The position numbers were made by a program, and so were the translations under genes. This document shows positions 2,282 through 48,616 of a stretch of 64,000 nt of DNA, one piece after another; the first letter of the stretch is position 1, and every line of letters begins with the position of its first letter. The notes beneath the pieces were generated by a model, which saw only the letters and a list, made by a program, of their open reading frames with translations, had not been told where the DNA came from and searched no databases. This DNA comes from Phocaeicola plebeius (GTDB taxonomy: Bacteria; Bacteroidota; Bacteroidia; Bacteroidales; Bacteroidaceae), in NCBI GenBank assembly GCA_022767125.1, contig JALEPZ010000069.1, positions 1 through 64,000 on the forward strand, in the 5' to 3' direction.

Positions 2282-3781
2282 ATGGTAGATAGAATAGAGT
2301 GCTTACCTATGATTACAATAAGAACCAAGACACCGGATTTAGCTATCCTATTTGCGGATGTGCTGAATGTCGATACAATCCAAAACCTGAAAGAAGGCCT
2401 TGGGATGATGGGAATGCGTTTCACAGGCAAACCCACCAAGGCTCATATAGTCAAGACCTACGACAAATACGTCAAGGAACATCCCGCCGAAGTGCTGCGC
2501 TGCCTCCGGCCTGAGGAACTGACGCTGATGGACAATATCCTGAAGCAAGGCCGGGGCAGCCATGTCACAGTGAAAGGCGTCGAGCTCTTCAACCAGTTGC
2601 AGAAGATGAATCTCGTTGTAAGCTATGAGGATAAAAAGGCAAACTCCACCGACATCTATCTCATCGACGAACTGCATGCTGTCTTTGCACCACATATCGA
2701 TATTGTCATCAGTAATCCTATCGATTACAGCACCGAAAAGACATTGAAGACCCCTCTAGACTCCGTCCTCTTTGAAGTCTCGTCTAAATGCCGTGATATC
2801 CTTGCATCCATCAATAAATGGTCGAAAAAACTTAAGGGGATCTCTCTTAATGAGTTAGATAGTTTTTCAGACGCACTCTTCGACTATGAAGACGAGCTGG
2901 ATGAATACGAAGGCAAACTCACCTCCCTTATAGCAGCCACGCCGCAAGGTTTCGCCGCCAGACAGGAAGACATCGACTCTCTTATGACAGTCGTCGGCCA
3001 AGTGCGCGCTACTATCATCAACATGCAGGAAGCGGTGGATGAAACCAGGGGCATTCCATCGGTTGAAGATGAAGAAGGCATTGACCCTGATGATAAGGAG
3101 CAGCTTGAAAAGCTCTTTAACAGCAAGACGGTCAAGGATACCATAGAGATGATCAAGAAAGACCGCATGGATGCCATGGAAGAGGCCATACGTGCAGAAA
3201 AGGAGGATGGCCCTGTCAAGTATCAGCCTGCCTTCACCAAGCATCCCGCCAAATTTCCTCCCAGGAACGAGTCCTATTGCGGCACACGACTGGTGCGCCC
3301 CCGTATTTTCGAGGTAACTCTCCCTATGGACGACGGTCTTTACTTCATCGTTTATTTCATCTATTTGGAGCAGAAAGGCTACACCCAGGTCACCTGCTAT
3401 TGGGGCAACATCTTCGACTTCGCCCAAAAGGCAGCCGCCGAACCCTATCCCGGTGCCGGCTATGTCATGCTGTCGAAGCCCTTCCGAAAGAAATATCCTC
3501 ATGTAGCTGCCGTCTATGGGATGCAAGAGGATAATGAGGACTGCACCCAACCCTACCTCACCACCATTGGATGGGACGGCCAGCCCAAGGAGTGGTTCCT
3601 TTCCGTCCGCCTCTGGGATTTCAACTATACCCGACTCATCACCCTCACTCCGCTCGACTGCCCGGAAGCCCTCGATGCCATTGATGCCCTCCGCGACGCC
3701 AGTCTCGCCATGATGCGCGACATTCAGCGTAGCGACGCCAAGCAGCCGAAGCAGTTGATGAAAGAGTTGTTCGGGGTATGA
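2282..3781 (+). CDS. Unrecognised 499-residue cytosolic protein
   Basis: I do not recognise this family. There is no signal peptide or membrane segment. Residues 1-130 are helical and include a segment (TGKPTKAHIVKTYDKYVKEH) that loosely recalls SAP/Rho-N or winged-helix folds. Residues 165-300 are rich in charged helices and probably coiled coil. The last 170 residues are richer in aromatic residues and strands (GLYFIVYFIYLEQ, TQVTCYWGNIF) and look like a separate globular domain. The next in-frame ATG is at 2309 and could be the true start. The gene stands alone between the broken nuclease gene and the polysaccharide locus, which suggests accessory DNA. Codon use resembles an ordinary expressed gene. 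Confidence 0.7.
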   Translation: MVDRIECLPMITIRTKTPDLAILFADVLNVDTIQNLKEGLGMMGMRFTGKPTKAHIVKTYDKYVKEHPAEVLRCLRPEELTLMDNILKQGRGSHVTVKGVELFNQLQKMNLVVSYEDKKANSTDIYLIDELHAVFAPHIDIVISNPIDYSTEKTLKTPLDSVLFEVSSKCRDILASINKWSKKLKGISLNELDSFSDALFDYEDELDEYEGKLTSLIAATPQGFAARQEDIDSLMTVVGQVRATIINMQEAVDETRGIPSVEDEEGIDPDDKEQLEKLFNSKTVKDTIEMIKKDRMDAMEEAIRAEKEDGPVKYQPAFTKHPAKFPPRNESYCGTRLVRPRIFEVTLPMDDGLYFIVYFIYLEQKGYTQVTCYWGNIFDFAQKAAAEPYPGAGYVMLSKPFRKKYPHVAAVYGMQEDNEDCTQPYLTTIGWDGQPKEWFLSVRLWDFNYTRLITLTPLDCPEALDAIDALRDASLAMMRDIQRSDAKQPKQLMKELFGV

Positions 3782-18077: not shown

Positions 18078-19319
18078 CTATGCTTTTTTATGCCTCTTCT
18101 TCACCACGAGCCGGCGGATCCACAGGTAGTAGCCCGTCAGCGGGAGCGTGGCTCCCAGCAACGCAGACAGGAAGGTGAGGATACGTGTCAGCCCGCCGCC
18201 CCAGCTTCCCGTGTGGAGCATATAGACGGCCGAACGAACCTTGCCCGACTTGTCCTGCTCGTCGTAGGGCTGGAAGTCTGTGATTTCGCCGCTACGCGGA
18301 TGGAACTCGAACTTGTCCGTGGCACGGAGGCTGTTGCGCCCCTTGGGGACTACACTGGCTGTACCGTTCGAGAGGGTGATCTGACGGTAGTCGGGATAGC
18401 GACGGACCAGTTCGTCGTAGACGTCCTGCCAGCGCGCGTAGGACGAATGCCGATGGCCTTCACCGCCACCCCGTTCGCCATGCATTCCGCCATTCCGTTC
18501 TCCATTCCGTTCTCCATTCCGTCCGCCGCTCCGTTCGCCATGCATTCCGTTGCTCCGTTCACCGTTCTGTCCGTTGCTCCGTCCGTTGTTGCTCCGTTCG
18601 CCGCTTTGTCCGCTGTGCATTCCGCTTCCGGCTGTGGATTCTACTCCGAAGAGGCGGTAGAACCCGGTGCGGTACCAAGAGAACGACCAGGTAAGTCCGG
18701 TCAGGGCGATGAGCAGCAGGAAGAGGGTCGCATAGATGCCCCCTGCTACGTGCAGGTCGTGCCAGAAGCGGGTCCAGCCATGGGTGCAGGAAATGCGCAG
18801 GCTGGCCGCCAGCGGCTTGTGGCGGTTGGTCAGCCACATCAGCAGTCCGGTGAGCAGGATGATGACAAGCAGCAGGGTACTCGTGCCCACTAGCAGTTTG
18901 CCCCACAGGATGCCTTCTCCGCTCGATGCTCCCATCAGCCAGCGGTGGAGATGGAACATGACATCGAAGAAGGGCAGCCGCTCCGACCGGCCTTTAATGT
19001 CGCCTGTGTAAGGATCAACGAACACCGAGGCGCGGCGCGGCTGGGAGAGGCTCACCTGCCAGGTGCGGCCGGCATCGGGCGAGACGGTGAGACCGGTGGG
19101 ACGGACGCTGTCGGGCAGCGAGGCACTGACTTTTTCCATCAGTTCGTCGAGAGGCAGCGGTGCGGTGCCGGTGGAAGTGACGAAGTACCGCTCGGGATGG
19201 CACCATTCAGTCAGTTCTTTCTCGTAAACGAGAGTGGCTCCCGAGAAGCAGACGAGGGTGATGATGAGCCCGAAGGGGACGGAGAGCCAAAGATGTAGGG
19301 TACGGAAAATTTTTTTCAT
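18078..19319 (-). CDS. xusC: PepSY-family inner-membrane protein of siderophore uptake (XusC-like)
   Basis: Four membrane segments (residues about 12-33, 141-163, 190-212 and near 375-395) and PepSY domains between them mark the PepSY-TM family. Conserved histidines appear at HLW (9), FHLHRW (123, 125) and HDLH (187, 190). Homologues are thought to reduce or process ferric siderophores in the periplasm. In Bacteroides thetaiotaomicron the third gene of XusABC encodes such a protein, and the gene order here is the same. Residues 229-292 are an unusual low-complexity insert of Gly, Arg, Asn, Glu, His and Met, with GERNG repeats and three GMH motifs. The symbol rests on synteny and family. Confidence 0.85.
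   Translation of the reverse strand: MKKIFRTLHLWLSVPFGLIITLVCFSGATLVYEKELTEWCHPERYFVTSTGTAPLPLDELMEKVSASLPDSVRPTGLTVSPDAGRTWQVSLSQPRRASVFVDPYTGDIKGRSERLPFFDVMFHLHRWLMGASSGEGILWGKLLVGTSTLLLVIILLTGLLMWLTNRHKPLAASLRISCTHGWTRFWHDLHVAGGIYATLFLLLIALTGLTWSFSWYRTGFYRLFGVESTAGSGMHSGQSGERSNNGRSNGQNGERSNGMHGERSGGRNGERNGERNGGMHGERGGGEGHRHSSYARWQDVYDELVRRYPDYRQITLSNGTASVVPKGRNSLRATDKFEFHPRSGEITDFQPYDEQDKSGKVRSAVYMLHTGSWGGGLTRILTFLSALLGATLPLTGYYLWIRRLVVKKRHKKA
18444..18635 (-). repeat. Degenerate short tandem repeats encoding a Gly/His/Met-rich loop
   Basis: The segment is built of 12-15 base units encoding GERNG, GMHGER and GERSN variants, inside the xusC-like gene. The number of units is likely to vary between strains through slippage. 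All units are whole codons, so the frame is kept. Confidence 0.7.
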
Positions 19320-19347
19320 ATTCTCAGCTGTTTTTGGGGGACATGGT

Positions 19348-20790
19348 TTAATAATGTGTCAGTTTCCCGACAGCCGTCACGGTGTTGACCTCCAGGGTAA
19401 TGCCCTTGGTGGCAGTGGCTGTTGCCGGATCGATGCGGTAAAGGGCGGCGTAAGCATCGGACGACATGACAGGCATGTAGATGCAGCCGTCGGCTACGTA
19501 GGGCATCTTGCCGAAGTCGGTGATGGTGGAAGCTTCGGGCAGTCCGCTGACATAGGTCAGGCGGCCCGTATCGCCGTTGAAGATGGCCAGCTGGTTGGCC
19601 ACAGCCGTGCCTTCGGCAGTAAACGGACGGTCGTACATGCGCAGCAGGAAGTAGTTGCCGCCGGCATGCCAGCAGCGGAGGAACGACTTGCCGTCTGTCT
19701 GGGCTTCGAGGTTATAGTAGTAGTCGGGGTCGAAGTCGTCGGCTCCTGCCTTGATGCGGACCACGCCGGCATCGAGTTTCGTCTGCTGGCGGGAATCGGC
19801 GAGCGACTTGGCATAGCTGGGAGAGAACACGTAGAGGTCGCCGTTGTCGGCAGCCCAGATGGTCTGGTAGTACTGCGAGCGGTAGCGTCCGCAGGGATAG
19901 CTGATCTTGTCGGTGCGCAGGAGCTTCTTGCCTTCCAGGTGTTCGTTGTCGAAGATGGCCACCCAGCATTCATCGGGGTATTGGGTGCCTTGCAGTTCGC
20001 CCTTGGTATAGGCGCCCGAACCACTGCCGCCCGATTCCTGCTTCACGAGGTCTTCATTGCCCGGCAGGATGTACTGTCCGTTGCCGATGGCCGACCCGTA
20101 GGGGCTGAGTCCCATGCCTACCACGCCACAGTAGAGCTTGCCACCAGCTTCCTGGAAGCCGGAGAGCATGGTGTATTCGCCGTTGCCGAGGAAGTTCTCG
20201 GAGAGGAACTCATCGGTAGAGGGACTGGAAACGGCGGTTTCTGCCTCCACATCGAGGTAGGTGAGCAGGAACATCTTGGGCAGGTTGCCGGCCTCGTCGG
20301 CATAGCTGCTGGGAGCACTGCCGGTGGAGGAGGTAAGGAGGTAGGGACCGAACTTCCCGAAGGTAGTGAAACGGCTGACTTTGTATTCTGCCGAGCGGGC
20401 AGAGAGTTCTCCATTGTCTGCCATGACATACGAACGGGTGGTTCCCGCATTGCCTTGGTTGTAAGTCAGTGCGTAGAGGTAGCGGTCGGCGTAGAAGACC
20501 CATTCGGTGGCTCCGTCGTTCACCAGTCCGTTGCCTACCGGTGAGAGGGAGCCTTCGGTGAGGGTAGACGAGGTGAGCAGGAGGTTGGCGGTCTTGTCAC
20601 CGTCCTGTACGGAAGTGGCGAAGGCGAATCCGCTCACGGGGGCCGTTACATCTTCTCCCGGCTGGTCTCCGCTGCTGTCGGGCTGTTCCGGAGTAGTGGA
20701 GGGATTCGTTACTGGATCGTTGTCAGAGCAGGCCGCCAGTGTCAGGCTGAACAGGGCGGCGATAAAGAGTTGCTTGTTCATTTCTTTCAA
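19348..20790 (-). CDS. xusB: DUF4374 surface lipoprotein, siderophore-binding (XusB-like)
   Basis: A lipoprotein signal ends at Cys21 (TLAACSD). The mature part begins with a Pro/Ser/Thr-rich spacer and then a beta-propeller-like DUF4374 domain ([44 protein letters not shown]). In B. thetaiotaomicron the DUF4374 protein XusB binds ferric enterobactin at the cell surface and passes it to XusA. Position between the receptor and PepSY genes supports the same role. It is separated from xusA by 251 bases containing a tandem duplication and a palindromic repeat, and from xusC by 28 bases. An alternative start is at Met4 of the predicted protein. Confidence 0.87.
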
Positions 20791-20854
20791 TTTAAAATTT
20801 AAAATATAGAATTCTTTCTCTCTTGTTGGATTTTTCTTTTAATTTACAATATAA

Positions 20855-20890
20855 TAATCTGTTTTCCTGGTTTAATCTGTTTTCCTGGTT
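20855..20890. repeat. Perfect 18 bp tandem duplication
   Basis: TAATCTGTTTTCCTGGTT occurs twice in direct succession (20855-20872, 20873-20890) in the T-rich spacer between xusA and xusB, 51 bases before a palindromic repeat. Confidence 0.85.
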
Positions 20891-20941
20891 GCTTCATTCG
20901 TTTTTTTCTTCATTGTTTTTTTTCGTTCCTCGTTTTCTTTG

Positions 20942-21021
20942 TTGTCATCCTGAGCGAAGTGAAGGATCTGAATACACTCACTTAATGTTTACAGATTTTT
21001 CGCTGTTGCTCAAAATGACAA
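20942..21021. repeat. Palindromic intergenic repeat, copy between xusA and xusB
   Basis: About 80 bases with arms TTGTCATCCTGAGCG... and ...CTCAAAATGACAA, inverted with respect to each other and ending 20 bases from the xusA stop. It belongs to the same family as the copies at 53098 and 61038. Confidence 0.75.
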
Positions 21022-21041
21022 TGGAGGTCAATTTAAAATTT

Positions 21042-23417
21042 TTAATTTCCAAAGTGTACCCTCACCTTCCCGTAGAAGGCCCGTCCGGCCTTTTGCAGGC
21101 TGAAGTTGTCGTAGAGCCGTTCGTCGGTGAAGTTCCGGCATTCGAACGACAGGTTATAGCGTCCCTTCCCCATGCTGTAGGTCAGCGAGAGGTTGTGCGA
21201 GAACTGGTTGGGTACCACGTAGTCCCCCTTGTTCGAGCCGAGGTTCGACGAGTAATACGTGAAGCTGTGCAGGTACTGGTTGTCGTAGGTCAGTGTCAGC
21301 ACGTTGCCGCGCGTCCCGCAGTTGTGCCAGGTGAGGTTCACGTCAGAGTCGGCAAACAGATAGGGCAGGTTCGAGATGCGCTGCTTGTAGTTGATGTTGG
21401 CCGTGGAGCTGCCCATGGCCGTGGGCATATTGTCGCACACGTTCATCTTCGTGAAGTTGCCGCCCACGCTCAGCCACCGCGAGAAGCCGTAGCGGGCGGA
21501 GAGGTTGAAGCCTTTGGTGAGCACGCTGCCGTAGTTCACGTACGAGGCCGCATACTTGCCGCCGCTCATGCTGGCGATGTTGCGCTGGATATAGTCCTTC
21601 GTGTCGCGGTACACCAGTCCGCCTTCCACATAGACCGAGTGCTTGCCGAACGTGCGGGCATAGCTCAGGCTGAAGTTCACGTTATGGCTCCGCTCGGGGC
21701 GGATGCCGATATCGCCCATTTCGAGGTCTTCGTCGCCGAACATTTCCTCGATGGTCGGCAGGCGGCACGCCTTTTCGTACGACAGCTTCGCCTGCAGGCC
21801 CGGCAGCAAGAAATAGGTGCCGGCGGCGCCGTAGCCCCAAAAGTCAATGGAGCGGGTGGTGCGTTCGTATGCTTCGGCGTTCGAGGTAGTAGCCACCGGG
21901 CCGGCCACATACTGGCGGTAGTACTTTCCAAAGGCCGAGAAGTTCCAGCGGTCGGAGGGCAGGAAGCGGTAGGAGAGTCCCGAGATGTTCTTGCGGGTCT
22001 GCTTGTCGATGGGGTCGGTAACGGCTTCGGCGGTGAGCAGCGAGGTGTTGCGCCGGCGGAACGTGTTGAGCACGTGGTTGAAGGTAAACGTGTGGGCCGT
22101 CCCGATGCGGTAGTTGGCTGTCAGCGTGGCGTTCCAGTTCTGCTGCACGGCCTGCTGGTGCTGGTGCGACTGCTCGCCCGGCGAGTTGAGGAGGGCCTTC
22201 TCGCCCAGCCAGTTGTATTTATAGGAGGCAGTGTCGACATTGGTCGTCAGGTCGCGGTTGTAGTTGGCGGTGAGGGTCACCTCCAGTCCCTTGGTGAAGA
22301 GGTTGCGCTTGGCATATTCCAGCGAGGGCATCAGGGCGTGGCCGTGGCGGTGTTTCTCGCCGTAGACAATCTCCTGGCGCACCCCGTTCTGGATTTCCTT
22401 ATAGAGGTGAGAGTAGGTGAATCCCAGCAGCAGCCGGTCGGCCCATGATCGCCCCGTCAGTCCCACTTTGGCGACCAGTGCCTCGTTGTGGTACGTGTCA
22501 TTGAAGCGTTTCACGTGCTGTTTCAGGTCTCGGTCGATGCGGCCGGTCTCGAAGTCCTCTACGGGCGAGTCTATGTAGTAGCTGTTGTCAGAGTAGTTCT
22601 GGAAGGCATTGACTTCGTAAGTGAAGCCGTTGTCGAAGGTCTGGCCGAAGTGGAGGAACGACTTGTGGGTATTGAACGATCCATACGAGTAGGAAGCGTC
22701 GGCAAACCAGCCCTTGCGTTTCTTTTGTGTGACGATGTTCACCACGCCGCCGATGGCATCGGTGCCGAAGCCTACGGGGACAACCCCCTTGTAGACCTCG
22801 ATGCGCTGGGCATAGTTCACGGGGATGTTGTTCAGTCCGAACGAGGCTCCCACGCCCTCCTGGGGCACTCCGTCGATGAATACCTTGACATGCTTGCCGC
22901 TGAATCCGTCCATCATGAGCGAGAGGTCGGAGCCTACGCCGCCCGATTCACGCAGTTTCAGGCCGGGAGCCTTGGCCAGCGCGTCGCCCAGGTTCTTGGT
23001 AGAGTTCTGCATCTCTTTGGTGTCGACAGCCACGGTGTTGAAGGCCGAGCGTTTCACGCGTCCCACGCCATTGGCCATCACCACCACTTCGTCCAGCTCC
23101 ACTTCGGAAGCCGTCAGCAGGATGTTCATTTTCTGGCGCTGGTCGGTGAGGCGGATGGACTTTTCCACGGTCTCATAGCCGATGGCAGAGACCACCAGCG
23201 TGTAGGCTCCGGCGGGTGCATGGAGGTAGTAATAGCCGTCGTCGTTCGAGGCGCAGCCGTAGCTCGTTCCCTTGAGGTAGACGGTGGCAAAACCCACGGA
23301 AGATTTGTCTTTGGTAATGATTTTTCCCGAGAGGGAGGCTGACGGGGTCTGCCCGAGTGCTGTCAGGGCAATGAATCCTATCAGAAATAGGGTGAAAAAT
23401 GTTCTTTTTGTCATCAT
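21042..23417 (-). CDS. xusA: TonB-dependent siderophore receptor (XusA-like)
   Basis: The order is signal peptide (residues 1-23, TALGQ), a carboxypeptidase-like beta domain (about 27-105; GKIITKDKSSVGFATVYLKG), the plug (about 120-240; LGDALAKAPGLKLRESGGVGSD, IDGVPQEGVGAS, AIGGVVNIVTQ) and a barrel ending in FYGKVRVHFGN. It lacks the STN domain of the SusC protein and has the size of iron-complex receptors. Followed by DUF4374 and PepSY genes, it matches XusA, which imports xenosiderophores. Its promoter carries a 20-base inverted-repeat element shared with a putative small RNA gene. An alternative start is at Met2. Confidence 0.9.
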   Translation of the reverse strand: MMTKRTFFTLFLIGFIALTALGQTPSASLSGKIITKDKSSVGFATVYLKGTSYGCASNDDGYYYLHAPAGAYTLVVSAIGYETVEKSIRLTDQRQKMNILLTASEVELDEVVVMANGVGRVKRSAFNTVAVDTKEMQNSTKNLGDALAKAPGLKLRESGGVGSDLSLMMDGFSGKHVKVFIDGVPQEGVGASFGLNNIPVNYAQRIEVYKGVVPVGFGTDAIGGVVNIVTQKKRKGWFADASYSYGSFNTHKSFLHFGQTFDNGFTYEVNAFQNYSDNSYYIDSPVEDFETGRIDRDLKQHVKRFNDTYHNEALVAKVGLTGRSWADRLLLGFTYSHLYKEIQNGVRQEIVYGEKHRHGHALMPSLEYAKRNLFTKGLEVTLTANYNRDLTTNVDTASYKYNWLGEKALLNSPGEQSHQHQQAVQQNWNATLTANYRIGTAHTFTFNHVLNTFRRRNTSLLTAEAVTDPIDKQTRKNISGLSYRFLPSDRWNFSAFGKYYRQYVAGPVATTSNAEAYERTTRSIDFWGYGAAGTYFLLPGLQAKLSYEKACRLPTIEEMFGDEDLEMGDIGIRPERSHNVNFSLSYARTFGKHSVYVEGGLVYRDTKDYIQRNIASMSGGKYAASYVNYGSVLTKGFNLSARYGFSRWLSVGGNFTKMNVCDNMPTAMGSSTANINYKQRISNLPYLFADSDVNLTWHNCGTRGNVLTLTYDNQYLHSFTYYSSNLGSNKGDYVVPNQFSHNLSLTYSMGKGRYNLSFECRNFTDERLYDNFSLQKAGRAFYGKVRVHFGN

Positions 23418-23449: not shown

Positions 23450-23497
23450 CAAAGGTAGGGTGGCGATGGCGACTCCCCAATACCTAAAAGTAGGTAT
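23450..23497 (-). promoter_or_regulatory. xus operon promoter with overlapping inverted-repeat operator
   Basis: On the minus strand, TTG at 23480-23478, a 20-base spacer and TACCTTTG (23457-23450) form the promoter. The 20 bases 23497-23478 (minus) read ATACCTACTTTTAGGTATTG, a 7+4+7 inverted repeat (ATACCTA/TAGGTAT with extension) that runs into the -33 box. A repressor bound there would block polymerase. An element identical at 18 of 20 bases sits in the same place at 27342-27361. Confidence 0.75.
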
Positions 23498-25894: not shown

Positions 25895-27355
25895 ATGAAC
25901 GGAACTTTTATTCTTCTTACCATTCTGGCCTATCTGGGCCTGCTGCTGCTCATTGCGCGGCTCACGGGGGCCCGCCATGCCGACAATGAAGCCTTCTTTC
26001 GGGGCAACCGCCAATCGCCCTGGTACATTGTCTCCTTCGGCATGATCGGGGCCTCGCTGTCGGGGGTGACTTTCGTGTCGGTACCCGGCATGGTGCGTTT
26101 CATCGACATGACCTACATGCAGACCTGCCTGGGGTTCTTCTTCGGCTATCTGGTCATTGCCCGTGTCCTGCTGCCCCTCTACTACCGGCTGAACCTGACT
26201 TCCATCTACACGTACCTCGGCGAGCGGTTCGGACCGGGCGCCTACACCACGGGGGCCTCGTTCTTCCTGCTCTCCAAGCTGCTGGGGGCGGCGGCCCGGC
26301 TCTATCTGGTCTGCGTCATCCTGCAGCATTTCGTGTTCGATGCCTTCCACATCCCCTTTGCGGTGACGGCGGTGGGTACGGTGCTGCTCATCTGGCTCTA
26401 TACGCGGCGCAGTGGCATCCGCACCATTGTGTGGACTGACAGCCTGCAGACCCTCTGCCTGCTGGCGGCGCTGGGACTGATTGTGTGGCAGGTGACGGCG
26501 GTGCTCGGGCTGGATGTCAGGGGAGCGGTCGACCTGGTGCGCGAGAGTCCTTACAGCCGCATTTTCGTCTTCGATGACTGGCAGTCCAAGCAGAATTTCT
26601 TCAAGCAGTTTCTGAGCGGCATATTCATCACTATTGTCATGACGGGTCTCGACCAGGACATGATGCAGAAGAACCTTTCGTGCCGGAACCTGAAGGAGGC
26701 GCAGAAGAACATGTGCTGCTACGGCATTTCGTTCGTCCCCGTCAACCTGCTGTTCCTGGCGCTGGGTATCCTGTTGCTGACGGCGGCCGGGCGGATGGGG
26801 CTGGAGTTGCCGGCCTCGGGCGACGACCTGTTGCCGCTTTTCGCGGCCGGCGGCCATCTGGGGTCTGCGGTACTGGTCTTCTTTACGGTGGGCATCATCG
26901 CCGCCGCCTTTTCCAGTGCCGACTCGGCCTTGGCCGCTCTGACCACCAGCTGTTGCATCGATTTGCTCAAGATTGGCCGCCTGGGCGAGGAGAAGGCCCG
27001 GCGCATCCGCCGGCAGGTCCATTTGCTGGTGTCCGTTGTGTTTGTGGCATGTATCCTGGTTTTCGAGGCGGTGGGCAGCCGGAGTGTCATCGACACCATC
27101 TATGTATTGGCTTCTTACACCTATGGCCCGCTGTTGGGCCTCTACGGTTTCGGACTGTTTACCCGTCGCCACCCTTGCGACCGCTATGTCCCTGTGGTGG
27201 CGGTGGCCTCTCCGCTGTTGTGTTTCGCCATCGACAGTTTCACCCGTTCCGCCACCGGCTACCAGTTTGGCTACGAGTTACTCATGCTGAACGGCCTGCT
27301 GACGGCGGGAGGCTTGTACCTGCTGAGCCTGCGCCCGAAAAATACCAATTTTTAG
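25895..27355 (+). CDS. Sodium:solute symporter (SSS family)
   Basis: The 486-residue protein has about 13 membrane segments and typical SSS features: a periplasmic N-terminus, ARHADNEAFFRGNRQSPW after the first helix, SFGMIGASLSGVTFVSVPG, LTSIYTYLGERFG, and the conserved FFTVGIIAAAFSSADSALAALTT segment that helps form the sodium site. The substrate (sugar, amino acid or carboxylate) cannot be read from the sequence. The last codons overlap the operator-like element of the downstream small RNA promoter. Confidence 0.9.
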   Translation: MNGTFILLTILAYLGLLLLIARLTGARHADNEAFFRGNRQSPWYIVSFGMIGASLSGVTFVSVPGMVRFIDMTYMQTCLGFFFGYLVIARVLLPLYYRLNLTSIYTYLGERFGPGAYTTGASFFLLSKLLGAAARLYLVCVILQHFVFDAFHIPFAVTAVGTVLLIWLYTRRSGIRTIVWTDSLQTLCLLAALGLIVWQVTAVLGLDVRGAVDLVRESPYSRIFVFDDWQSKQNFFKQFLSGIFITIVMTGLDQDMMQKNLSCRNLKEAQKNMCCYGISFVPVNLLFLALGILLLTAAGRMGLELPASGDDLLPLFAAGGHLGSAVLVFFTVGIIAAAFSSADSALAALTTSCCIDLLKIGRLGEEKARRIRRQVHLLVSVVFVACILVFEAVGSRSVIDTIYVLASYTYGPLLGLYGFGLFTRRHPCDRYVPVVAVASPLLCFAIDSFTRSATGYQFGYELLMLNGLLTAGGLYLLSLRPKNTNF

Positions 27356-27389
27356 GTATTGCGCAGCCGGCTTTCCTCCCGTATCTTTG
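27342..27389 (+). promoter_or_regulatory. Promoter of a putative small RNA with the xus-type operator
   Basis: TTG at 27359-27361, a 20-base spacer and TATCTTTG at 27382-27389 form a consensus promoter. Bases 27342-27361 (ATACCAATTTTTAGGTATTG) match the xusA promoter element at 18 of 20 positions, with the same position relative to the -33 and -7 boxes. The element overlaps the stop codon of the symporter gene. Confidence 0.75.
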
Positions 27390-27394
27390 CAGTG

Positions 27395-27518
27395 TTGTTA
27401 GTCATAGAGATTACGTGAACCACAAAATGTAGTAAAAAGTTAGTTAGTTGCAAAGTAAAGCACGATGTTTGGTCTGTTATCCTACGCGTGAGCGCAGGAT
27501 AACAGACCAAGCTTTTTT
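27395..27518 (+). ncRNA. Putative small RNA of about 125 bases, possibly iron-regulated
   Basis: A transcript from the promoter just upstream would run about 75 bases of A/U-rich, weakly structured sequence and then reach a 15 bp perfect hairpin with a U-tract. The only start codons inside are followed at once by stops (for example GTG AAC CAC AAA ATG TAG), so no protein is expected. The layout of an unstructured seed region plus an intrinsic terminator is that of a regulatory RNA. The start is estimated from the promoter and could be off by several bases. I did not recognise a known RNA family. Confidence 0.6.
27469..27518 (+). terminator. Intrinsic terminator with 15 bp perfect stem
   Basis: Arms 27469-27483 and 27496-27510 are perfect complements with a 12-base loop, followed by GCTTTTTTTA. 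It ends the putative small RNA and would also insulate the minus-strand genes beyond. Confidence 0.92.
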
Positions 27519-27578
27519 TATTACCTCTTCCTTTTTAATAGTATTCTTCTTGCAATGACAACCCGGGCGTGGCTTGTC

Positions 27579-44967: not shown

Positions 44968-47900
44968 TTATTCTTCTGTCTTCTTGCTCCAGTCCATGGC
45001 AGCCATGCGGAGGTAAGAGTCGTAGCGTTTCTTAGCCATGTCTTCACAAGCCTTGAAGAGTTCGGCAGCTTCTCCCGGATACTGCTTGGCAACGGATGCG
45101 AAACGAACTTCACCCTTCAGATAATCCTGGAAGTTGCTCCAGTTCGGTTCCTTCGAGTCGAGCGAGAACGGGTTCTTGCCTTCAGCTTCCAGAGCCGGGT
45201 TGTAACGCCACAAGTGCCAGTAACCACATTCAACAGCCTTGGCTTCTTCAGCCTGGCTCTTGCCCATACCGGCCTTCAAGCCGTGGTTGATACACGGAGC
45301 GTAGGCGATGACCAACGACGGTCCGGGATAAGCTTCAGCTTCGCGGATGGCCTTCAGGGTCTGAGCCTGGTCGGCACCCATAGCAATCTGAGCCACATAT
45401 ACATAGCCGTAAGTAGTAGCAATCATACCCATGTCTTTCTTGCGTACGCGCTTACCGGAAGCAGCAAACTTGGCGATGGCACCGAGCGGAGTAGCCTTAG
45501 AGGCCTGACCGCCTGTGTTGGAGTAAACTTCGGTATCCAGCACGAGGATGTTCACGTCTTCACCGGAAGCAATCACGTGGTCGAGACCTCCGTAACCGAT
45601 ATCGTAGGAAGCACCGTCACCACCGATGATCCACTGGCTGCGCTTCACGAGGTAATCCTTGAATTCGGCAATCGTAGCGCAAGCACCACACTTGTCCTTG
45701 GCAGCTTCTACCAGCGGGATGATCTTTTCGGCAGCAGCCTTGCTCTTGTCGGCATCGTTGCGGCCGTCAATCCATTCCTGGAAGGCTTCCTTGTATTCAG
45801 CCGGAGTGCCTTCGGCAGCGATGGCCGTTGTCATGGCTTCTTCCAGACGGTTGCGCAACTTCTTGTTGGCAATTTCCATACCCAGACCGAATTCGCAGAA
45901 GTCTTCGAACAGGGAGTTCGCCCAAGCAGGACCCTGACCCTTTTCGTTGGTGGTGTACGGAGTAGAAGGTACGGAACCGGAGTAAATAGAAGAACAGCCG
46001 GTAGCGTTGGCCACCATTTCGCGGTCACCGAACAGCTGGGAGATCAGCTTCACATACGGAGTTTCGCCGCAACCGGAGCAAGCACCGGAGAACTCGAAGA
46101 GCGGAGTAGCGAACTGAGAGTTCTTCACGTTGGACTTGGTGTCTACCAAGTGCTGCTTGGAAGTAACGTTGGCCACGCAGTAGTCCCAGTTGGCAGCTTC
46201 GGGCAACTGGCTTTCGAGGTGTTTCATTACCAACGCCTTGCCGCCCTTCTTCGGATTGCCCGGACATACATCGGCACAGTTGCCGCAACCCAAGCAGTCC
46301 ATAACGTCCACCTGCATACGGAAGGTCATGCCGTCGAATACCTTACCGACAGCCTTCAGCATGGTGAAGTTGGCACCCTTCTGTTCTTCTGCGTCGAGCA
46401 CGAACGGACGGATGGCAGCGTGAGGACAAACGTAAGCACACTTGTTACACTGGATACAGTTCTCGGGATTCCATTCGGGAACGAAAGCAGCTACACCGCG
46501 CTTTTCAAATTTGGCGGTGCCGGCATACCACGTACCGTCTTCGATGCCCTTGAAGGCCGATACCGGCAGCAAGTCGCCGTCCTGGGCGTTGATGGGACGA
46601 ACCACTTCGTTGATGAAAGCAGGATCGTTGTTTTCTGCCTTCGGATCGTCCGGCAGGTTCACACATTCGGGATCGATAGCCAGCTGCTTGTATTCGCCAC
46701 CGCGGTCAACGGCTGCATAGTTCTTGTTCACCACGTCTTCACCTTTCTTGCCGTAAGACTTCACGATGAACTTCTTCATCTGTTCTACAGCCAGGTCAAC
46801 GGGGATAACGCCTGTAATGCGGAAGAAGGCACTCTGCAGGATGGTGTTGGTGCGGTTGCCCAGACCGATTTCCTGTGCAATCTGAGTGGCGTTGATATAG
46901 TAAACGGTGATGTTGTGCTGTGCGAAGTACTTCTTCACCTTATTCGGCAGGTTCTTGGCGAGTTCTTCGCCTTCCCAGATGGTGTTCAGCAGGAACGAAC
47001 CGTTGTCGCGCAGACCACGAGTCACATCGTACATGTGCAGGTAAGCCTGAACGTGGCAAGCCACGAAGTTCGGTGTGTTCACCAGGTAAGTGGAACGGAT
47101 AGGCGTATCACCGAAACGCAGGTGAGAGCAAGTGAAACCGCCCGACTTCTTGGAGTCGTAAGAGAAGTAAGCCTGACAGTGCTTGTTGGTGTTGTCACCG
47201 ATGATTTTCACAGAGTTCTTGTTGGCACCTACCGTACCGTCGGCACCCAGACCGTAGAACTTGGCTTCGAACATGCCTTCGCCACCGACAGCGATTTCGG
47301 CTTCCTGCGGCAGGGAAGTGAAGGTCACATCGTCTACGATACCCACTGTGAAGAGGTTCTTCGGCATGGGGAGTTCCATGTTCTTGTATACGGCGATGAT
47401 CTGGGCAGGAGTCGTGTCCTTCGAACCCAAGCCATAGCGGCCGCCTACGATGACCGGAGCGTTTTCTACACCGTAGAAGCAGTCTTTCACATCGAGGTAG
47501 AGCGGTTCGCCGTTGGCACCCGGTTCCTTCGTGCGGTCCAGAACGGTGATGATCTTCGCCGACTTGGGCACAGCTGCCAGGAAGTGCTTGGCAGAGAACG
47601 GACGATACAGGTGGACAGCTACCATACCTACCTTCTTGCCCTGAGCGGTCAGGTAGTCGATGGTTTCGCGGATAGCTTCTGTAACAGAGCCCATAGCGAT
47701 GATGACGTGTTCGGCATCTTCTGCACCATAGTAGTCGAACAGACCGTAGTTGCGGCCGGTAATCTTGTTGATTTCCTTCATGTAGTCTTCTACAATCTGG
47801 GGAACAGCGTCGTAGAACTTGTTGCAGGATTCACGGTGCTGGAAGAAGTGGTCGGGGTTTTCGGCCATACCACGCATAACGGGGTGGTTGGGGCTCAGTG

Positions 47901-48525
47901 CACGTTCACGGAATTCTTTAAGAGCTTCCTGATCGATAAGGGGAGCGAGGTCTTCGTTTTCAATCTTTTCGATCTTCTGGATTTCGTGAGAGGTACGGAA
48001 ACCGTCGAAGAAGTTCACGAAGGGTACGCGGCTCTTCAGGGTAGCCAGGTGGGCTACACCGGCCAGGTCCATGACTTCCTGTACGGAGCCTTCGCACAAC
48101 ATGGCGAAACCTGTCTGGCGGGTAGACATGACGTCCTGATGGTCACCGAAGATACACAATGCATGAGAAGCCAGTGTACGAGCCGATACATGGAAGACGC
48201 AAGGCAGCAGTTCGCCGGCAATCTTGTACATGTTGGGAATCATCAGCAGCAGACCCTGAGAAGCGGTATAAGTAGTTGTCAATGCACCAGCCTGAAGAGA
48301 ACCGTGTACGGCACCGGCGGCACCGCCTTCAGACTGCATTTCCTGAACCAAGACAGTTTCGCCGAAGATGTTCTTACGACCTGCGGCAGCCCATTCGTCT
48401 ACGTGCTCAGCCATGGTGGACGACGGGGTGATAGGATAGATAGCGGCTACTTCCGTAAACATGTACGAAATGTGAGCGGCAGCTTCGTTACCATCACAAG
48501 TGATGAATTTTTTTTGTTTAGTCAT
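44968..48525 (-). CDS. nifJ: Pyruvate:ferredoxin (flavodoxin) oxidoreductase
   Basis: This single-chain 1185-residue enzyme oxidises pyruvate to acetyl-CoA and CO2 and reduces ferredoxin, the main route in anaerobic Bacteroidales. The domains are in order: N-terminal pyrimidine-binding domain (YIFTEVAAIYPITPSS-like start), transketolase C-like and gamma domains (FRFGDTPIRSTYLV), two [4Fe-4S] motifs (CIQCNKCAYVCP, CLGCGNCADVCP), a further cluster site (FSGACSGCGETPYVKLISQL) and the thiamine diphosphate domain (GGDGASYDIGYGGLDH, DTEVYSNTGGQ). The base composition is less GC-rich than its neighbours, with codon use of a highly expressed gene. A strong terminator follows. Confidence 0.98.
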   Translation of the reverse strand: MTKQKKFITCDGNEAAAHISYMFTEVAAIYPITPSSTMAEHVDEWAAAGRKNIFGETVLVQEMQSEGGAAGAVHGSLQAGALTTTYTASQGLLLMIPNMYKIAGELLPCVFHVSARTLASHALCIFGDHQDVMSTRQTGFAMLCEGSVQEVMDLAGVAHLATLKSRVPFVNFFDGFRTSHEIQKIEKIENEDLAPLIDQEALKEFRERALSPNHPVMRGMAENPDHFFQHRESCNKFYDAVPQIVEDYMKEINKITGRNYGLFDYYGAEDAEHVIIAMGSVTEAIRETIDYLTAQGKKVGMVAVHLYRPFSAKHFLAAVPKSAKIITVLDRTKEPGANGEPLYLDVKDCFYGVENAPVIVGGRYGLGSKDTTPAQIIAVYKNMELPMPKNLFTVGIVDDVTFTSLPQEAEIAVGGEGMFEAKFYGLGADGTVGANKNSVKIIGDNTNKHCQAYFSYDSKKSGGFTCSHLRFGDTPIRSTYLVNTPNFVACHVQAYLHMYDVTRGLRDNGSFLLNTIWEGEELAKNLPNKVKKYFAQHNITVYYINATQIAQEIGLGNRTNTILQSAFFRITGVIPVDLAVEQMKKFIVKSYGKKGEDVVNKNYAAVDRGGEYKQLAIDPECVNLPDDPKAENNDPAFINEVVRPINAQDGDLLPVSAFKGIEDGTWYAGTAKFEKRGVAAFVPEWNPENCIQCNKCAYVCPHAAIRPFVLDAEEQKGANFTMLKAVGKVFDGMTFRMQVDVMDCLGCGNCADVCPGNPKKGGKALVMKHLESQLPEAANWDYCVANVTSKQHLVDTKSNVKNSQFATPLFEFSGACSGCGETPYVKLISQLFGDREMVANATGCSSIYSGSVPSTPYTTNEKGQGPAWANSLFEDFCEFGLGMEIANKKLRNRLEEAMTTAIAAEGTPAEYKEAFQEWIDGRNDADKSKAAAEKIIPLVEAAKDKCGACATIAEFKDYLVKRSQWIIGGDGASYDIGYGGLDHVIASGEDVNILVLDTEVYSNTGGQASKATPLGAIAKFAASGKRVRKKDMGMIATTYGYVYVAQIAMGADQAQTLKAIREAEAYPGPSLVIAYAPCINHGLKAGMGKSQAEEAKAVECGYWHLWRYNPALEAEGKNPFSLDSKEPNWSNFQDYLKGEVRFASVAKQYPGEAAELFKACEDMAKKRYDSYLRMAAMDWSKKTEE

Positions 48526-48616
48526 ACAATTACTAAAAATTAGTTGATAATGATACTTTAAAAGTAATTTCTCTCCAAATAGCGGACCTTCTGCCTCTCC
48601 GGAGGGTGTGCGGTTC

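Follow-up and report, generated by a model that had tools for sequence, protein, structure and literature searches.

Does the stretch behind a sodium:solute symporter gene of Phocaeicola plebeius encode a small RNA that is produced together with siderophore uptake, and what would such an RNA regulate? The question was studied in a window of 64,000 nucleotides (contig JALEPZ010000069.1, positions 1 to 64,000) and in genomes of related Bacteroidales. The conserved RNA, the hairpin in relatives, the operator, the linkage with a hemerythrin-LuxR operon and the complementarity to target mRNAs were computed here; the transcription in P. plebeius, the iron response, the repression of the targets and the identity of the regulator are what we infer.

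The RNA gene and its operator

The predicted gene is located between the symporter gene and a convergent DUF6965 gene, and its elements are listed in Table 1. The promoter (TTG, 20 nucleotides, TATCTTTG), about 125 nucleotides with no usable frame, and a hairpin followed by a T-tract, all described in the original prediction, were confirmed by the sequence; the frames after the promoter were all very short as judged by eye. The hairpin (27467-27512) consisted of 15 perfect pairs, a G-U and a G-C pair, and T7 followed at 27513-27519. The determined fold energy of the predicted RNA (27395-27518) was -40.4 kcal/mol in comparison with -22.9 ± 3.0 kcal/mol of 200 shuffles (z = -5.8), and most of it resided in the terminator hairpin of the drawn structure. 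In the folds of seven copies, the seed was predicted to be moderately to mostly unpaired (0.49–0.85). The generic scans for sigma-70 promoters and for terminators reported neither this promoter nor this terminator, and tRNA or tmRNA genes were not found in the 64-kb window. At the sequence level, the locus has a promoter and a terminator of its own, as a stand-alone non-coding RNA would. Besides the -33 box, the operator covers the last codons and the stop of the symporter gene.

Table 1. Elements of the predicted RNA gene, the xus-like operon and nifJ in the window.
Feature	Positions	Strand	Basis or remark
Xus-like operon	18078..23417	-	TonB receptor 21042-23417, DUF4374 protein 19348-20790, PepSY_TM protein 18078-19319
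Same operator at xus promoter	23478..23497	-	sequence
Operator AATACC-N8-GGTATTG, near-palindrome	27341..27361	+	sequence; overlaps -33 box and symporter stop codon
Promoter	27359..27389	+	sequence; -33 TTG 27359-27361, 20 nt, -7 box TATCTTTG 27382-27389
Predicted small RNA	27396..27519	+	start inferred from -7 box, end from T-tract
Seed 1, TTAGTCATA	27398..27406	+	antisense to start regions TATGACTAA; conserved in A1 and A2
Second conserved box, ATTACGTGAACCAC	27410..27423	+	its ATTAC could pair with GTAAT just upstream of nifJ start
Third stretch, AAGTTAGTTAGTTG	27437..27450	+	possible 7 bp with CAACTAA in nifJ leader
Terminator: 17-bp stem, cap CGC-GUGA-GCG, then T7	27467..27519	+	sequence and fold
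nifJ, pyruvate:ferredoxin oxidoreductase (PFOR), predicted target	44968..48525	-	TIGR02176, 1935 bits
Predicted pairing site TATGACTAA over nifJ start codon, GTAAT just upstream	48518..48526	-	duplex -16.9 kcal/mol

The element at the RNA promoter, AATACCAATTTTTAGGTATTG (27341-27361), had been claimed to be nearly identical to the one at the xus promoter, ATACCTACTTTTAGGTATTG (23478-23497, minus strand), and the comparison bore this out, the RNA promoter and the xus promoter being the sole two places of exact ATACCNNNNNNTAGGTAT in the 3.12-Mb assembly. In the genus, AATACCNANNNNTAGGTATTG was detected in 41 of 61 genomes and, read backwards, in 0 of 61. The box TACC-N11-ATTG preceded the RNA in all 29 Phocaeicola loci fetched by similarity (28 of the 29 had TAnnTTTG as well), in all 38 named loci with enough upstream sequence, a set overlapping with the previous one, in 11 of the 13 loci L161-L174, and in 29 of 29 loci of genus g43. 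The same box preceded the hemerythrin gene in 31 of 34 loci, against a background of about 1.5% per region which is itself inflated by the RNA and hemerythrin loci.

The strict genus operator motif resulted in 63 rows, of which 32 were RNA promoters by our own reading and a few were without a clear gene; the operator was also located upstream of TonB receptor genes. The sites suggest a regulon wider than iron uptake. By eye, other strict-motif sites (e.g. L112, L115, L118, L123, L111) precede, in subsets of species, enolase, AhpC, TetR, HdeD-like and HmuY-like genes, and further sites precede porin-like and XusA-like genes.

The operator, TACCTA-N4-TAGGTA, bore no resemblance to the Fur consensus when compared by eye, and Fur control, which the comparison with RyhB implied, gained no support. 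Operators of NarL/FixJ (LuxR) regulators have the consensus TACYYMT-N2-inverted TACYYMT (7-2-7), and the operator, written as TACCTAT-TT-TTAGGTA, fits this site in shape. HcpR was rejected as the regulator, the HcpR2 consensus given in PMC1274295, GTAACnnnnGTTAC, being unlike the operator by eye.

Conservation and gene neighbourhood

In a DNA search of 100 relatives, the RNA was matched (E ≤ 1e-4) in 33 of the 59 other genomes of the genus Phocaeicola by our own count, and the best match to the 5' half of the window RNA was 94% over 65 nt (E = 4e-20). The gene is carried by P. vulgatus ATCC 8482. In G011 and G041, only the promoter part was matched by this search, at a porin-like gene preceded by the operator, and the RNA was present elsewhere in both genomes. 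A sequence pattern was detected in 39 contigs titled Phocaeicola, Bacteroides, Prevotella sp. or unplaced Bacteroidales/Bacteroidaceae. In genus g43, probably the sister genus Bacteroides as judged from gene order, 86 of 119 genomes contained TTAGTCATA-N2-16-TACGTA-N1-2-CCAC, some of them twice. The covariance model R1 detected the family RNA in further Bacteroidaceae genera (32 of 251 genomes); scoring 16 candidates per genome, this search had a low sensitivity and missed many copies, the window copy included, and it was outperformed by exact patterns in g43. Over 393 Bacteroidales genomes, the exact pattern had 3 matches, all in Bacteroidaceae (3 of 6 genomes of the family); it was absent from all 387 genomes that belong to other families of the order. 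The predicted small RNA is common to many gut Bacteroidaceae and was detected solely in that family, the counted genomes being related by descent.

Two copies of the RNA pattern per contig were observed in 10 of 119 g43 genomes, 7–17 kb apart in nine of them and about 86 kb apart in G722. In L211 the copies are located at 3234 and 19800, and L213 and L214 are likewise doubled. In G016, a gene of the FopS sRNA (RF04319, 78 bits; L018:1200-1266, minus strand) was found about 190 nt downstream of the RNA.

The relatives have GTTAGTCATATAGAAATTACGTAAACCACAAAAGTAAAAAAGTTAGTTATTAGTT in common, apart from minor differences, and behind it a hairpin whose end is CGAA-GUGA-UUCG. The invariance of TTAGTCATA..CCACAAA is partly achieved by construction, because it was part of the search pattern; AAGTTAGTTATTAGT, which lies outside the pattern, was nearly as constant in Phocaeicola. 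In the family hairpin, changes on both sides were determined in 9 of 13 pairs with 96.6% of cells paired, a level reached in 0 of 500 shuffles, and by the count of pair types in 8 of 500; these shuffles ignore relatedness, and a wider sequence set was used for them. The hairpin and a T-run end the copies of the window, P. vulgatus and many g43 genomes, and a clear T-tract was missing after several Phocaeicola hairpins.

Of the elements of the original prediction, the promoter and the operator are kept in relatives and the family hairpin covaries, and the hairpin of the window differs from that of the family. The window copy retained the operator, the promoter and the 5' half, and has another terminator stem, still with a GUGA loop. 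The same genes surround the RNA in the sister genome G013 (symporter 84%, DUF6965 protein 51%, BamA-like protein 87%), whose copy, unlike that of the window, bears the family hairpin; therefore, the gene would have moved first and the hairpin would have been replaced later.

The usual neighbour of the RNA is a two-gene operon of a hemerythrin-domain protein (PF01814), RIC/ScdA-like by eye with no ScdA_N match reported, and a LuxR-family regulator (PF00196). By our own count, the LuxR gene was found within about 1.5 kb of the RNA in 27 of 29 Phocaeicola loci, upstream on the same strand (exceptions G013 and G050), and in 25 of 29 g43 loci, where it is convergent. In the window assembly (92.8% complete), neither the hemerythrin-LuxR operon nor RIC was found, only LuxR paralogues, and this apparent lack counts against a tight link between the RNA and the LuxR protein. 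The LuxR-family protein is nevertheless the first candidate for the regulator, because the operator precedes the LuxR gene's own operon and has a NarL-type shape; most likely, the regulator is a LuxR-family homologue of CdhR. In G013 (L229, G013:C10), a fused hemerythrin-LuxR protein of 315 aa was observed with the operator at its promoter, and a similar fusion is described in Prevotella intermedia (PMC10434189).

The gene order of L211 (sugar transferase, glycosyltransferase, hexapeptide protein, RNA, LuxR, hemerythrin and, by eye, PurH-like) fits the BT_0519-0523 region of B. thetaiotaomicron, which would place a homologue of the RNA beside BT_0520. The BatR sRNA represses BT_0521 (PMC10861873), the probable neighbour of this homologue, which may be a coincidence. 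In L214, two RNA copies flank genes of a porin-like protein (by eye, no Pfam match), an M75 peptidase, a di-haem oxidoreductase and a CcsA/ResB-like protein (by eye). In many, not all, Phocaeicola, the next downstream gene is lutA-like with Cys-rich CCG domains (e.g. L075:2901-3674, L106).

Predicted targets and the iron response of related species

The seed TTAGTCATA is antisense to AUGACUAA start regions, and its reverse complement, TATGACTAA, reads as a start-codon context. In five genomes, WTATGACTAA occurred at 68 sites in comparison with 164 sites of the reversed control. Three omitted sites belonged to the RNA gene, and two of the 65 examined ones were again the RNA gene itself, leaving 63 non-self sites, at 19 of which, by our own count, an ORF no shorter than 80 aa is likely to start. 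The rule for a likely start (no more than 40 open codons in the upstream frame) was set after the list had been seen; at 30 codons, 18 sites were left and rubrerythrin dropped out. Iron enzymes accounted for 7 of the 19 sites (6 of 18 at 30 codons): nifJ in G108, G306 and G709, frdA in G306 and G007, and, both in G709, rubrerythrin and the beta subunit of a 2-oxoacid:ferredoxin oxidoreductase (korB-like), with the korB-like gene and the truncated frdA of G007 scoring under the curated cut-offs. The other 12 sites belonged to genes which are unnamed or not known as iron enzymes, e.g. PFP, PurT and an MmdA-like protein (by family). The iron-enzyme start regions to which the conserved seed is complementary are those of nifJ and, in some genomes, of frdA, rbr and the korB-like gene.

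When 45-nt start regions were ranked, the nifJ of the window was 3rd of 671 for the window seed, and with the Bacteroides-type seed frdA was 1st and nifJ (L344) 4th, in a background that includes motif-picked loci and with several top ranks taken by non-iron genes. The wider duplex calculation did not single out nifJ, which ranked 5th of 47 ORFs of the window with 391 of 2132 windows being as good. The duplex energies of long stretches do not discriminate, since GC-rich, partly spurious ORFs outrank nifJ.

The nifJ start, TTAGTAATTGTATGACTAAACAA, is the only exact TATGACTAA in the window besides the RNA itself. That nifJ might be a target had been put forward from the window alone, and the seed proved to be complementary to the nifJ start in the window and in 17 of 18 other genomes. 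In these further sRNA-bearing Bacteroidaceae, TATGACTAA was present at the nifJ start in 17 of 18, and the exception, G149, has ATGGCTAA, which pairs with one G-U. Among 12 genomes of other families, TATGACTAA was found at the nifJ start in none, and ATGGCTAA, which would also pair with one G-U, in three (G066, G074, G088); this contrast of one family with others is confounded with descent. GTAAT, which can pair with the ATTAC box, was located just upstream of the nifJ start in 9 of 10 Phocaeicola, the window included.

Between the third stretch and the nifJ leader, pairings of 11 bp were determined in both g49 genomes, of 13 bp in g65 and of 11 bp in 3 of 4 genomes of one g43 clade, the sequences differing among the three. 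These pairings were above the shuffles, as were, weakly, those of G734 and G050. The pairing of the window (7 bp), of most Phocaeicola, and of G306 and G267 did not exceed the shuffles, and third-stretch pairing as a general rule was therefore rejected. The partner in the nifJ leader shifts with the RNA between clades: the own-clade assignment was the best of 120 by the longest stretch and the third by energy.

The operator is shared with loci of kinds whose iron response in B. thetaiotaomicron is described in PMC10434189. In iron-depleted B. thetaiotaomicron, BT_0519-0520 (a hemerythrin protein and a response regulator), termed the counterpart of the CdhR operon, increased 16–20-fold, xus BT2063-65 489–676-fold in low iron, and a cluster of CcsA, porin, thiol oxidoreductase and M75 peptidase genes about 100–300-fold (PMC10434189). 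Neither PMC7366714 nor PMC10994844 refers to BT_0519-0521 in its main text. According to the abstract of PMC10434189, ferredoxin, rbr, sdh, vor and pfor are decreased in low iron; sdh, vor and rbr were lowered in all three species of that paper, and the change of pfor refers to P. intermedia. This list was met only after our target list had been made. P. gingivalis, too, lowers sdh, vor and rbr (PMC10434189), and as the RNA was detected in 0 of 387 genomes of other families, a search in which P. gingivalis itself was outside, another mechanism probably operates there. The RNA is probably not the sole route to the low-iron decrease of iron enzymes. The RNA bears on a question left by PMC10434189, namely by which regulatory systems the response of these bacteria to iron is governed.

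Proposed role, alternatives and known systems

The RNA is likely a trans-acting antisense sRNA that is induced by iron limitation, pairs with the starts of iron-enzyme mRNAs and spares iron, resembling RyhB in role and not in descent. In iron limitation, a regulator at the AATACC-N8-GGTATTG operator would turn on or release the RNA promoter, so that the RNA would be switched on along with xus and further genes of iron acquisition. With its 5' part, which is weakly structured (TTAGTCATA, ATTACGTA and the third stretch), the RNA would pair with the translation starts of abundant iron-enzyme mRNAs, nifJ (PFOR) being the first target and frdA, rubrerythrin and the korB-like gene the targets in relatives. 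Ribosomes would thereby be kept from binding, the mRNA would probably become less stable, and iron would be spared as a result. The original prediction of an RNA that shares the operator of siderophore uptake and is a counterpart of RyhB in role is supported by the conserved RNA and operator, by the iron-induced counterpart loci and by the seed against nifJ.

The 12 of 19 start-codon sites outside the known iron enzymes favour a different reading, in which a conserved sRNA of the same regulon has other main targets, e.g. outer-membrane receptors, and the AUGACUAA matches stem from an A-rich context that is common at the starts of highly expressed genes; the similarly built FopS acts on susC mRNAs (PMC11697453). 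However, WTATGACTAA was rarer overall than its reversed control (68 and 164 sites), the iron enzymes at 7 of the 19 start sites are of kinds that are decreased in low iron (PMC10434189), and the pairing with the nifJ leader changes in step between the clades, which makes this reading rather unlikely.

Less probable still is a cis-acting leader or attenuator of the downstream gene, lutA in many Phocaeicola, instead of a free sRNA. A same-strand lutA-like gene does follow within a few hundred nt in many Phocaeicola, and several hairpins at those loci are without a strong T-tract. However, the downstream genes vary, they are convergent in the window and in most g43 loci (with the exception of one L214 copy), and many copies, as stated above, end with a hairpin and a T-run. 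Equally improbable is a conserved block that serves solely as a promoter/operator region bound by protein, or as the 3' end of the upstream gene, with no functional RNA. In favour of this, no part is shared more widely than the operator, which overlaps the symporter stop, but the constant positions extend well past the -7 box and beyond the search pattern (AAGTTAGTTATTAGT in Phocaeicola), and the hairpin covaries.

The iron-sparing antisense sRNA is accordingly the preferred reading, and it can tentatively be extended to a Fur-independent iron-sparing module. In this extension, whose chance we judge to be slightly below even, the hemerythrin-domain (RIC-like) protein and the LuxR protein of CdhR type would sense iron or the Fe-S state and bind TACCTA-N4-TAGGTA, whereby siderophore and heme uptake would be turned on and, with it, an sRNA that pairs with start codons and stops PFOR, fumarate reductase, 2-oxoacid oxidoreductase and rubrerythrin from being made. 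An iron-sparing small RNA would explain how dominant gut bacteria reduce central iron enzymes when inflammation deprives them of iron.

The literature search, whose scope was without most subscription papers, supplements and Theta-Base, found no iron-sparing small RNA of Bacteroidota, and an unnamed BTnc catalogue entry may exist at the RNA locus. The covariance-model search of Rfam, proposed along with the original prediction, was conducted for the window and 15 loci, and the family matched no model. At the gathering score there was no match in the window, the RyhB family included, and none to the RNA at E ≤ 1 in the 15 loci, L003 of the window among them. The models of GibS and FopS (RF04182, RF04319) did not match the window RNA or its family, the match in L018 being the separate FopS gene.

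GibS (RF04182) and FopS (RF04319) of Bacteroides are similar to the RNA in having a single-stranded 5' seed, a terminator hairpin and targets in start regions; FopS has canonical sigma-ABfr promoters (PMC11697453). SnoA of B. thetaiotaomicron is likewise a stress-linked regulatory RNA in an iron context (PMC13370916), but it is antisense to the hcp promoter and acts with HcpR, and is set apart by this description. As described, GibS, FopS, MasB, BatR and SnoA are located at other places or have other targets; the comparison of sequences covered GibS and FopS, through their Rfam models. CdhR of Porphyromonas gingivalis regulates hmuYR, and its counterpart operon, BT_0519-520 (PMC10434189), is of the same make-up as the operon adjoining the RNA. 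CdhR differs in being a protein, and is a candidate regulator of the operator.

The closest likeness in role is to RyhB and its analogues PrrF, FsrA and IsrR, to which NrrF can be added: an RNA of low iron, as expected here, that pairs with the start regions of iron enzymes. No sequence relation to them was found, the operator is unlike the Fur box by eye, and the detection is confined to Bacteroidaceae. In contrast to these RNAs, the predicted seed of the window RNA spans the start codon itself, and the gene is linked with a hemerythrin-LuxR operon.
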